A stretch of 49,103 bases of DNA from Gilvimarinus agarilyticus (GTDB taxonomy: Bacteria > Pseudomonadota > Gammaproteobacteria > Pseudomonadales > Cellvibrionaceae): assembly GCF_000832015.1 (NCBI RefSeq), contig NZ_JXCJ01000001.1:2023905-2073007 (forward strand), given 5' to 3'. Positions within the stretch are counted from its first letter, which is position 1. Each line of letters begins with the position of its first letter. The notes below the pieces were generated by a model. It searched no databases. It had not been told where the DNA came from and worked only from the letters and a program-made list of their open reading frames with translations. Both the position numbers and the translations under genes were made by a program. Below are positions 46,172 to 49,103 of this stretch, piece after piece.

Positions 46172-46606
46172 ATGAAGAAGATCCTGAATGCGACTGTGAT
46201 TGTCGTGATGTCGCTAGTAATGAGTATCGAGCGATCTCACAAAGAACTGTTTAAGGGAGGGGTTGCTCTCCTTATTGTATACCTAGTTGGAATATCACAG
46301 TCTTTTCCTGTTGTACTTGAGCAAGAACATATAGCGAATCAGCTGAAATTTGAATTTGAAGAAGCCTCTGGCCTCGCTTTGAGCGAAGTTGAGTGTGCCG
46401 GACTACGTGAGAATCAAGCCTTATGTAGACTTGCCCAATACAAAGCTGATGCTGTAAGTAGCTCTTCTCGCTACGTTTTCGAACTTCTCAATGTGGCCTT
46501 AGCTCTAGGTATCCTTTTAATAGCCTTCGCAGCTATTGGATTTCTATCAAAAATCGAAACTGATACAAGAAAGTCTGCCAAAGAAGGAACCATAACAAGC
46601 AAATGA
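46172..46606 (+). CDS. Small membrane protein, probable integron-cassette gene
   Basis: 144 residues with hydrophobic segments near 5-18 (LNATVIVVMSLVMS), 30-44 (GVALLIVYLVGISQS) and 105-125 (ELLNVALALGILLIAFAAIG). Between them lies a charged loop with two Cys (VECAGLRENQALCRLAQYK). It is AT-rich compared with the upstream core genes. Its TGA stop (46604-46606) lies inside the left end of an attC-like site, as in compact cassettes. No known family was recognised. An AAAAAGG precedes the ATG. Confidence 0.72.
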   Translation: MKKILNATVIVVMSLVMSIERSHKELFKGGVALLIVYLVGISQSFPVVLEQEHIANQLKFEFEEASGLALSEVECAGLRENQALCRLAQYKADAVSSSSRYVFELLNVALALGILLIAFAAIGFLSKIETDTRKSAKEGTITSK

Positions 46607-46670
46607 TGTGCGCGCGTTTCACGCGCTGGACGCCCTCCTGCGTCGGGCACCGCATATTTGAGCGTTATAC
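46590..46670 (+). other. attC-like recombination site
   Basis: 81 bases with integron attC architecture. The left end CCATAAC (46590-46596) and right end GTTATAC (46664-46670) share the complementary core ATAAC/GTTAT. Inside them CAAATGATG (46600-46608) pairs with CATATTTG (46653-46660), leaving one unpaired G, the strand-marking extrahelical base of attC. The centre holds two small hairpins, GCGCGT-TTC-ACGCGC and GACGC-CCTCCT-GCGTC. The right end reads TGAGCGTTA, the usual attC terminus. No integrase gene is in the window. Confidence 0.78.
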
Positions 46671-46702: not shown

Positions 46703-48679
46703 ATGGACGATTTAATTAAAGTAGAAGTAAAAAAGGATCATTTGGATAAAGTCTCTAGGGCACCTGTTTTAAGTGCCTTAACAGAGCTAGTTTGGAATGC
46801 TTTTGATGCTGACGCAGATTTAATTCAAGTTTCAATAGAACGAACAGACTTTGGTTTACAAGCCGTCCACGTTAAAGATGACGGAATGGGAATAGCCCAC
46901 AAAGATTCCAAACAATTATTTAGCTCCCTAGGCGGATCGTGGAAAGGAAAAAAAGGAATTTCACCTAAAGGGCGATTCTTACACGGAAAAGAGGGGCAGG
47001 GTAGATTTAAATCGTTCGCAATTGGAAGGATGGTTGAATGGAATACATCTTTTTTTGATGGTAAAAATACACTTTCATACACAATAAAAGGTAAAGCTGA
47101 TAATAAAGGAGTGTTTTATCCAACATCCCCAAAAATTAGCGGTAACCAGTCTACTGGAACAAGCGTTTCAATTTATGAACTTCATAAAGAGTTTACATCT
47201 ATAAATAAAGAGCGCTTACTGGAATACTTCTCCTCGGTTTTTGCTATATATCTATCTCAATATAAATCAATAAAGCTCTACGTCGATGGGGAGTTGGTTG
47301 ACCCTGAAAGTCAAGTCAAGCACAAGACTAATATCCCTTTAGGTAGTGTACAATTTGACGATGTTGATTATCCTTATGAATTACAAATTATTGAGTGGAA
47401 TTGCAACACAGAAAACGAAGTGCAGCTTTGCAATAACAATGGGTTCCCATTGTTGCCATATGAAAAAACTATTCGAGGCACAGGTGACTTTTCATATACT
47501 GCATACCTAAAGTCAGGCCATATCAGCAAGCTAAATACAGTTGGCACATTAGGTCTTGGTGATTTAGAACCCTCTTTATCTAAGCCTATCGAATCAGCAA
47601 TATCAGCGTTAAAAAATCACTTTATGCTGCGTAGAATTGAATTGTCAGCAGATAAAATTGAAAGATGGAAAAAAGAAAATATATACCCTTATTCAGGCGT
47701 ATTAAGTGGTCCAGTTGAAGAGGCTGAAAGGCAAGTTTTTGATATTCTGGCTTTAAATGTTAGTGAACAAATTCCAGAATTTGATAGGTCGGATGTCAAA
47801 CTAAAAAAGTTTCAATTTAGGTTGCTAAAACAAATAGTAGGATCTAACCCTGATGACTTACATGTCATTTTAACTGAAGTTTTAAATTTGACGAAAGGTA
47901 AGCAGTCTGAGCTTGCAGAGCTGCTTAAAGAAGCTTCTCTTTCATCGATAATCAGTGCGTCTAAAGTTGTATCTGATCGCTTAAAGTTTGTTGCAGGATT
48001 AGAGGAAATACTTTTTCATCCTGAAAAAAAGAAAGTTCTAAAAGAGCGAGCTCAGTTGCATAAAATACTTGCGGAAAATACTTGGGTATTTGGTGATGAA
48101 TTTTCTTTAACAGTAAATGACCAATCTCTTAGTGCTGTACTTAAAGTGCATTTGAGTAAAAAACGGTTAGACATTCAGCTCGATAATCCAGTAAAGAGAG
48201 TCGATGGTCGAGTGGGTATTGTAGATTTAATGCTGACTCGAAGCATTGGGAAAAACCACTCGGATGAAAGAGAGCACTTAGTTGTAGAGCTAAAAGCGCC
48301 AAAAGTAAAAATAGGGCAAGATGAAATAAATCAAATTGAATCATATGCATTCGCTGTTGCAGAAGATGAAAGGTTTAATCGTTTGCAAACGAAATGGAAT
48401 TTTTGGGTTATATCCAATGATCTTGATGCATATGCAAGGAGACGTTTAAAGCAAGATAACAAAGGAAAAGGCATTATATATGATGCGGATGGCATTACTA
48501 TTTGGGTAAAAACTTGGGGCGAACTGATTCAAGAGTGTAAGCACAGGCTGGAATTTGTCAGAGAGCAACTGGATATTGATATTGATAATTCTGACGGCTT
48601 AAAGTACTTACAAGAGTCATACTCTGAATACACAAAAGATGTTGTGTTAACTCATGAAAGTGAAGGTGTCGAGGTGTGA
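46703..48679 (+). CDS. GHKL ATPase fused to a PD-(D/E)XK (Shedu/DUF4263-like) nuclease domain
   Basis: 658 residues. The N-terminal GHKL (Hsp90/MutL-type) ATPase shows the N-box LTELVWNAFDADAD (E28, N32), VKDDGMGIAH (D60, G61, G63), the flexible lid HGKEGQGRFKSF (residues 94-105) and GTSVSI (152-157). Residues ~330-440 are helical linker. From ~450, LHKILAENTWVFGDEFSL, then D508 in GIVDLML, E529-x-K531 in LVVELKAP and QIESYA (Q544, Y548) give the D...ExK...QxxxY series of PD-(D/E)XK enzymes, closest in pattern to Shedu SduA. The gene is AT-rich and lies just after an attC-like site. An AAA-type ATPase gene follows after 160 bp. Defence is the likely role, by inference. Confidence 0.8.
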   Translation: MDDLIKVEVKKDHLDKVSRAPVLSALTELVWNAFDADADLIQVSIERTDFGLQAVHVKDDGMGIAHKDSKQLFSSLGGSWKGKKGISPKGRFLHGKEGQGRFKSFAIGRMVEWNTSFFDGKNTLSYTIKGKADNKGVFYPTSPKISGNQSTGTSVSIYELHKEFTSINKERLLEYFSSVFAIYLSQYKSIKLYVDGELVDPESQVKHKTNIPLGSVQFDDVDYPYELQIIEWNCNTENEVQLCNNNGFPLLPYEKTIRGTGDFSYTAYLKSGHISKLNTVGTLGLGDLEPSLSKPIESAISALKNHFMLRRIELSADKIERWKKENIYPYSGVLSGPVEEAERQVFDILALNVSEQIPEFDRSDVKLKKFQFRLLKQIVGSNPDDLHVILTEVLNLTKGKQSELAELLKEASLSSIISASKVVSDRLKFVAGLEEILFHPEKKKVLKERAQLHKILAENTWVFGDEFSLTVNDQSLSAVLKVHLSKKRLDIQLDNPVKRVDGRVGIVDLMLTRSIGKNHSDEREHLVVELKAPKVKIGQDEINQIESYAFAVAEDERFNRLQTKWNFWVISNDLDAYARRRLKQDNKGKGIIYDADGITIWVKTWGELIQECKHRLEFVREQLDIDIDNSDGLKYLQESYSEYTKDVVLTHESEGVEV

Positions 48680-48839
48680 CAAGTTTGTCAGTCATCGCCA
48701 CTTCGTGCTCGTCTTCTGGTTGTAGAGACGTTACACGATAGGGGGGGGATGGTCGGGCGTGGTCCCACTAAGTCCCTTATAAAAAGTAATCTCTAGCCGC
48801 TTAGTTTAAGAGAGGGCTAAAAGGACTCACCGTTTTGTT

Positions 48840-49103
48840 ATGAAAGTTACTCTTGAGAAATTAAAAAAAATTAAAAAACTAGAATTTGAAATACCTGGTG
48901 AAGGTGTTTGGTTGGTTACAGGCTTAAATGGGTCTGGTAAAACAAGTCTATTGGCCGCTTTGTTTAGAATTGGATCAAGTCATGCGTTTCAGCGTTATTA
49001 CAGAACGAGCACCTTTGAAAATAGACTTGATTCATTCAGAGATACAAAAATTACCTATCAAATCAACAGCAATCAAGTCTCTTATGCTTATGGTGGGCGG
49101 AGG
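48840..49103 (+). CDS. Walker-A ATPase (AAA/SMC-like), cut by window end
   Basis: The first 88 residues of a longer protein, from the ATG at 48840 to the window end. [20 protein letters not shown] leads into a Walker A loop [14 protein letters not shown] (residues 28-41), the arrangement of RecF/SMC/OLD-type ATPases often found in anti-phage systems. Base composition matches the preceding GHKL gene, with which it probably forms a two-gene operon despite a 160-bp gap. The rest of the protein and any effector domain lie outside the window. Confidence 0.8.

Follow-up and report, generated by a model that had tools for sequence, protein, structure and literature searches.

The GHKL-Nuclease Locus

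The window analyzed here, a stretch of 49,103 nucleotides from Gilvimarinus agarilyticus (G000:C1:2023905-2073007), ends in two genes preceded by an attC-like site. The features of this region, all on the forward strand, are the following:

46172..46606 (+): small open reading frame of 144 aa taken from the ORF list, with hydrophobic segments recognized by eye, presumed to be the preceding cassette
46590..46670 (+): attC-like site with a bottom-strand fold, overlapping the end of the small open reading frame upstream
46703..48679 (+): gene for a GHKL ATPase joined to a PD-(D/E)xK nuclease, 658 aa, an open frame starting with ATG
46772..47080 (+): GHKL ATPase core, residues 24-126, delimited by Pfam, invariant residues and Foldseek
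48008..48640 (+): C-terminal nuclease domain, residues 436-646, delimited by a separate structure model and Foldseek
48840..49103 (+): 5' part of an ATPase-Toprim gene, which carries a Walker A motif and continues to G000:C1:2074246

The rest of this last gene was taken from the genome, which gives a full gene (L002:4744-6246) encoding 500 aa, with one unresolved base. The pair is AT-rich, as claimed in the initial annotation: the GC content is 0.364 for the nuclease gene and 0.363 for the ATPase-Toprim gene, compared to a mean of 0.544 (sd 0.027, minimum 0.426) in 133 background stretches. For the small open reading frame upstream, searches of Pfam, PADLOC and NCBIfam gave no family match with an E-value below 0.02.

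Domain Architecture and Conservation of the Nuclease Protein

The 658-aa protein matches HATPase_c_3 over residues 24-126 (4.5e-12) and HSDR_N_2 over residues 485-581 (1.7e-5, 25.3 bits for a cut-off of 25), and the profile search that the initial annotation had recommended thus recovered both a GHKL and a nuclease-type Pfam domain. Landmarks of the GHKL core are the catalytic E28 and N32, a DxGxG motif at residues 59-63 and a glycine lid at residues 94-101, while those of the nuclease domain are E448, D508, E529xK531, Q544 and Y548. Their conservation was read from an alignment of 65 sequences, made of the window protein and 64 of the 80 fetched loci (16 loci were left out), with 35-89% identity between the window protein and these 64 relatives. 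The N-box residues E28, N32 and D35, D59 and G61, the lid (H94-G95..G98-G100-R101), as well as E448, D508, E529, K531 and Y548 are invariant in all 65 sequences, and G63 and Q544 are conserved in at least 90% of them. HATPase_c_3 is matched by every family member (65/65) and HSDR_N_2 by 22 of the 65 at E 0.001. The first reading of the sequence, a complete GHKL ATPase joined to a C-terminal nuclease, is therefore borne out by Pfam domains and invariant catalytic residues.

Comparison of the window copy with its two nearest relatives gave pN values of 0.062 and 0.097 for pS values of 0.725 and 0.759. The gene is under strong purifying selection and, since pN is far below pS, the reading frame is not a product of chance but a real gene.

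The full-length AF2 model (pLDDT 84.6, pTM 0.56) matched Hsp90/TRAP1, MORC2-4, MutL and GyrB with E-values of 1e-12 to 3e-10 among the best 50 Foldseek matches listed, over 307-453 aligned columns and with low TM-scores (TMq 0.24-0.32). Modeled separately, the nuclease domain (pLDDT 90.2, pTM 0.89) retrieved a single Foldseek match with E < 0.001, the repair endonuclease 2vld (2.9e-4), which we take to be NucS, followed by MspJI and McrC. The Shedu structure 8ti8_D came at rank 20, a weak match (E 0.19, TMq 0.42, 214 columns).

Relationship to Described GHKL-Nuclease Proteins

The initial annotation knew of no named system with this fusion and an ATPase partner; the fusion itself is covered by two published descriptions, paraMORC3 (2008) and VcSduA (2025). 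Iyer, Abhiman and Aravind (2008; PMC2292703) describe paraMORC3 as a GHKL domain followed by an S5 domain and a C-terminal E-D-ExK nuclease, a subset of these genes standing alone. Compared with this published description of the original members, the window protein presents no architectural difference: both harbor an N-terminal GHKL ATPase, an S5-type domain and a C-terminal restriction-fold E-D-ExK nuclease. The GHKL domain is documented by HATPase_c_3 in 65/65 sequences and by the invariant E28, N32, D59, G61, G95, G98 and G100, and the nuclease by E448, D508, E529 and K531, invariant in 65/65, together with the nuclease fold matches, whereas the S5-fold domain following the GHKL domain is predicted from the structure model. 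The window protein thus has the paraMORC3 features examined, namely GHKL, S5 fold by model and E-D-ExK nuclease.

The second description concerns VcSduA of Vibrio cholerae, a protein of the same architecture that defends against phages (Adams et al., 2025; PMC12137116). According to that report, the substitutions E27A and K557A each abolish defence, cultures are protected at every MOI used, the protein is classed as Shedu type I-D and its gene is carried on VSP-II. As far as a published description allows the two to be likened, both are one-gene GHKL and PD-(D/E)xK proteins with a catalytic E near residue 27 and a nuclease-motif K near the C-terminus, but the E and K tested in VcSduA lie 530 residues apart, compared to 497-516 in the 65 aligned sequences. 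Because of this difference in spacing, the window protein may be only a cousin of VcSduA. The clade formed by the 64 aligned loci may be distinct from it, and the papers listed by searches of mainly openly accessible literature included no tested member of this clade and no experiment on the window protein or its close family.

The nuclease core had initially been likened to Shedu (SduA, DUF4263/PF14082), a comparison of which the PD-(D/E)xK nuclease stands and the Shedu label is weak. Both are single-protein PD-(D/E)xK nucleases, and Shedu acts in defence and has an N-terminal regulatory domain that varies. The D...ExK core of the window protein aligns with SduA_C proteins, the site itself is invariant (D508, E529, K531) and no constant partner was seen among the scanned neighbors. 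However, the window protein had no match to PF14082 (SduA_C) at E up to 1, as had none of the proteins of its own genome at 1e-8, and the fold match to 8ti8 is the weak one given above. The PADLOC SduA model matches 5 of the 65 family members at E 0.01 (best 2.3e-4). Against four SduA_C proteins, which came from 4 of the 194 genomes of the order, hhalign gave a probability of 41% over the D...ExK core; with two other nuclease proteins the values were 0.8% and 0.2%, and with L008, a more distant GHKL-nuclease, 98.8%. Since SduA_C was searched for and not found, we did not file the window protein as Shedu.

Distribution and Mobile Settings of the Family

Of 472 pattern matches in the genome collection, tblastn confirmed 348, and 80 loci were kept, which by their record titles span Proteobacteria, Planctomycetes, Verrucomicrobia, Actinobacteria, and Cyanobacteria. 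The protein was also matched by tblastn in 46 plasmid records, with a coverage of at least 80% in 36, and in two Pasteurella phages, amid structural genes. A scan of viral contigs with the single window protein returned two pattern matches, neither of them a relative. Among 97 genomes, the one of the window included, a close copy of the nuclease besides that of the window occurs only in G057 and distant copies in G001 and G079, the remaining matches being short or weak.

The tallies of neighboring genes rest on 103 of 175 eligible proteins (190-1100 aa, within two genes), 72 being left out, many of them the longest. In these 103 neighbors, Pfam recognized Phage_integrase (5), Methylase_S (3), DNA_methylase (2), Fic (2), AAA_21 (2), and DarT (1), and the PADLOC matches listed include Specificity_I (3), MTase_II (2), SoFic (2), and ShosA (2); by raw tally, most of the neighbors scanned belong to no defence family. 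Among the annotated plasmid and phage records, Drt2 and a LlaMI-type restriction enzyme lie in one stretch near a nuclease relative, a type ISP enzyme lies near another and an abortive-infection protein near a third. The neighbors vary between loci and none of those scanned is constant; we therefore interpret the nuclease gene as a mobile unit consisting of one gene. The architecture common to VcSduA, along with plasmid, prophage and defence-gene settings, suggests that its role is likely one in defence.

Proposed Function and Alternatives

We consider the product of this gene to be, with good probability, an ATP-gated anti-phage nuclease acting as a single protein, of the paraMORC3 and VcSduA kind. 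The GHKL ATPase head would most likely dimerise like that of MutL and MORC. Upon ATP binding, the head and the S5-like transducer that follows would close around DNA like a clamp, a state that would license the C-terminal PD-(D/E)xK nuclease to cut the invading DNA. Such a clamp cycle is the general behavior of GHKL enzymes, from which the clamp proposed here is drawn. By analogy with VcSduA, anti-phage activity would need both the ATPase and the nuclease and would be direct, not by suicide.

An unlikely alternative is a nuclease of DNA repair or of plasmid or chromosome maintenance, MutL- or NucS-like, rather than a defence gene. Two resemblances speak for it, that of the GHKL half to MutL and that of the nuclease model to a repair endonuclease, its best fold match. 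It is at odds with the patchy spread of the family on plasmids, prophages and islands and with the close copy found, besides that of the window, only in G057 among 97 genomes, as well as with the proven phage-defence function of VcSduA, which has the same architecture (PMC12137116). MutL itself was rejected as an identity of the protein, with 33 bits on TIGR00585 for a cut-off of 180.

A slightly less probable alternative is that the protein forms the restriction half of a BbrUII/HgiDII-like type II restriction-modification system and cuts a fixed unmethylated site. The best NCBIfam match of the protein is indeed the BbrUII/HgiDII restriction enzyme (NF050001, 1.1e-17), a protein model of 659 positions that also includes a GHKL ATPase, and 54 of the 65 family members have a match to the PADLOC REase_II model with an E-value of at most 0.01. 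However, the NF050001 score of 63.9 bits is far below the cut-off of 550, with the best stretch lying in the GHKL part; no methylase was recognized by eye in the flanking open reading frames, and none is constant beside the relatives (DNA_methylase in 2 of 103 neighbors). Classical restriction-modification was rejected on the score below the NF050001 cut-off and the lack of a constant methylase. The anti-phage nuclease acting alone remains our preferred reading.

The Adjacent ATPase-Toprim Gene

The second gene had been described as SMC/OLD-like. It does encode a Walker A ATPase, but of the ATPase-Toprim rather than the SMC type, as it matches the PADLOC model ATPase-Toprim_I-B at 7.2e-36 over residues 2-376; this resemblance to the Retron I-B effector concerns the second gene only, and no reverse transcriptase was noticed in the ORF lists. 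An E and a DxD motif are expected of a Toprim site, and by eye an E in a VED/AED context and a DxD motif of the second protein recur in its two near relatives.

The initial annotation had seen in the two genes a defence module and had named the absence of a conserved pairing as a result that would refute it. Both genes lie on the same strand, 160 bp apart, and are equally AT-rich, and defence systems make use of the class to which the ATPase-Toprim protein belongs. However, no orthologue of the ATPase-Toprim gene was found by phmmer among the called genes near the 80 nuclease relatives, where AAA matches occur in only five loci, all weak. In L079 (2e-7) the match lies four genes away from the nuclease relative. 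In L054 (4e-5) it is adjacent and corresponds to GajA of Gabija (9.3e-226), with 26% identity to the window ATPase over 130 aa. In L085 (5e-5) it is also adjacent, and the neighbor matches mad3 and is UvrA-like by eye, whereas L060 and L055 are matched at about 0.006. Since the neighbor in L054 is GajA, an ATPase of the same broad class adjoins the nuclease in 1 of 80 loci, which is the one case in favor of a pairing, but it comes from a named system and is no orthologue. Similarly, no AAA-Toprim partner is named in the nine annotated of ten plasmid and phage stretches (H2 being unannotated); in one of them, H16, the adjacent gene, on the opposite strand and close to transposase genes, is annotated as an "ATP-binding protein".

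The close copies of both genes also occur separately. Among the 97 genomes, relatives of the ATPase-Toprim protein at 1e-15 are present only in G065 (52%) and G085 (49%). The nuclease copy of G057 is present without an ATPase-Toprim gene; the ATPase-Toprim gene of G065 is present without any nuclease match, and in G085 the only nuclease match is a weak one of 193 residues in the GHKL part. In this last genome, the ATPase gene immediately adjoins an integron integrase. The pairing is thus absent in the relatives examined, and a single two-gene defence system, with one protein sensing and the other cutting, is highly improbable. Among the papers listed by searches of mainly openly accessible literature, none reports a GHKL-nuclease paired with an AAA protein or a paraMORC3 cassette. 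The ATPase-Toprim gene is most likely an independent neighbor; the proposed new two-gene system is struck off the list, and the nuclease takes its place with a described kind of defence protein.

Possible Acquisition as an Integron Cassette

The attC-like site upstream of the nuclease gene, also pointed out initially, ends in a GTTATAC R' core (46664-46670). Its R and L boxes pair on the bottom strand, but the fold is weak (z -1.55; of 200 shuffles, 15 do equally well), and a crude script scan, which is too unspecific, gives scores as high to 8% of the GTT sites in the background. Alignment of the window with the L031 copy (84% identical), whose next gene encodes an Mrr-like protein, begins at GTTATAC and does not extend upstream of it, whereas L030, which has no GTTATAC, aligns from a few bases after it. 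The motif is not over-represented, with 2 occurrences in the window for 4.9 expected, and it counts by its place, not its frequency. We regard GTTATAC at 46664-46670 as the probable 5' cassette boundary of the nuclease gene. The upstream attC-type boundary is thus retained from the initial proposal, whereas a downstream attC is not convincing. At the stop codon, a TGACAAG or TAACAAG motif is present in the window, L031 and L030, but in the window and L031 the sites after the stop lack an attC-type fold (z -0.92 and -0.46). The pattern [CT]AACAA at the stop occurs in only the two nearest of the 80 loci, and in 13 of 735 control genes. Among the 80 loci, the wider family showed no cassette form, and the single integrase-like gene close to a relative (in L081) has the wrong orientation for an array.

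No integron integrase lies beside the nuclease locus. The genome harbors one TIGR02249 integron integrase over the cut-off (400 bits, G000:C1:641438-642376), 1.4 Mb away, and the first attC of its own short integron array ends in GTTATAC, the same R' core as the window site. Integron integrases were found at 1e-80 in 111 of 144 genomes of the family and not in G057, which has the 84% copy. An empty-site comparison of eight genomes of the genus, including that of the window, located both flanking genes in three relatives, where they are not neighbors. On these data, acquisition of the nuclease gene by this genome as an integron cassette is possible, though its odds fall somewhat short of even.

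The neighboring gene adds a second integron setting. In G085, the integrase beside the ATPase-Toprim gene (TIGR02249, 393.5 bits, over the cut-off) points away from it; GTTATAC precedes this gene and an attC-like stretch follows, whose fold is better than that of shuffled sequences (z -2.75) but leaves the outer boxes unpaired. We tentatively suggest that a GHKL-gated nuclease gene of about 2 kb may move between bacteria as a self-sufficient cassette, and that integrons may bank such genes and stack them with other large defence cassettes such as the ATPase-Toprim gene, although a review (PMC12409362) emphasizes the small size of integron-borne defence systems. Of 179 V. cholerae integron cassettes, the same review reports anti-phage activity for at least 16. 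If the cassette form and the integron setting of G085 are true, the defence stores of integrons would extend to large ATPase-nuclease proteins.

Genomic surroundings of the nuclease gene relatives

Some relatives of the gene fusing a GHKL ATPase to a PD-(D/E)xK nuclease lie next to other nuclease or defence genes. Gabija is represented in a Hyphomicrobium MAG (locus L054:7983-13113), where the GajA gene (9.3e-226) comes directly after the nuclease gene and is overlapped by a 474-aa gene that is probably GajB. The gene following the nuclease gene of IMCC1989 (L031:2344-3306) encodes an Mrr_cat nuclease domain (1.2e-5) and is perhaps another cassette-borne defence gene; by eye, its product is a putative membrane protein. 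In a Colwellia MAG, repeated stretches that resemble tRNAs by eye flank a copy with 89% identity (L030:7507-12240).

The nuclease gene is also present in two different Pasteurella phages (L024 and L025), in both of which it stands as an extra gene among the structural genes, and farther along each of them lie two small, unknown genes whose lengths match between the phages. Within the genus Gilvimarinus, a distant relative (26% identity; locus L007 of genome G001) looks broken because its frame contains a TAG stop.

The ATPase-Toprim gene and integron-associated sequences

A strong hairpin is found 3' of the ATPase-Toprim gene of the window's own genome (L002:6243-6345, fold strength against shuffled sequence z -3.17), and since its outer boxes are unpaired, it could be either a terminator or an integron recombination site (attC) that has decayed. 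This gene includes one unresolved assembly base at the window end (L002:5009, just past window base 49103).

The 49%-identical homologue of genome G085 (L122:1498-4320) is the first gene adjoining an integron integrase, and the attC-like stretch 3' of it (z -2.75) has unpaired outer boxes. Next in line is another large ATPase-like gene, which by eye resembles PrrC/RloC and gave no match in an NCBIfam search.

A recurrent palindrome of 72-73 bases, with ends like AGCCAAC...GTTGGCT, was observed at four loci (L129, L140, L142, and L144); it sits near integron integrases in several family members and may represent either a type of attC or a hairpin repeat with no relation to attC.
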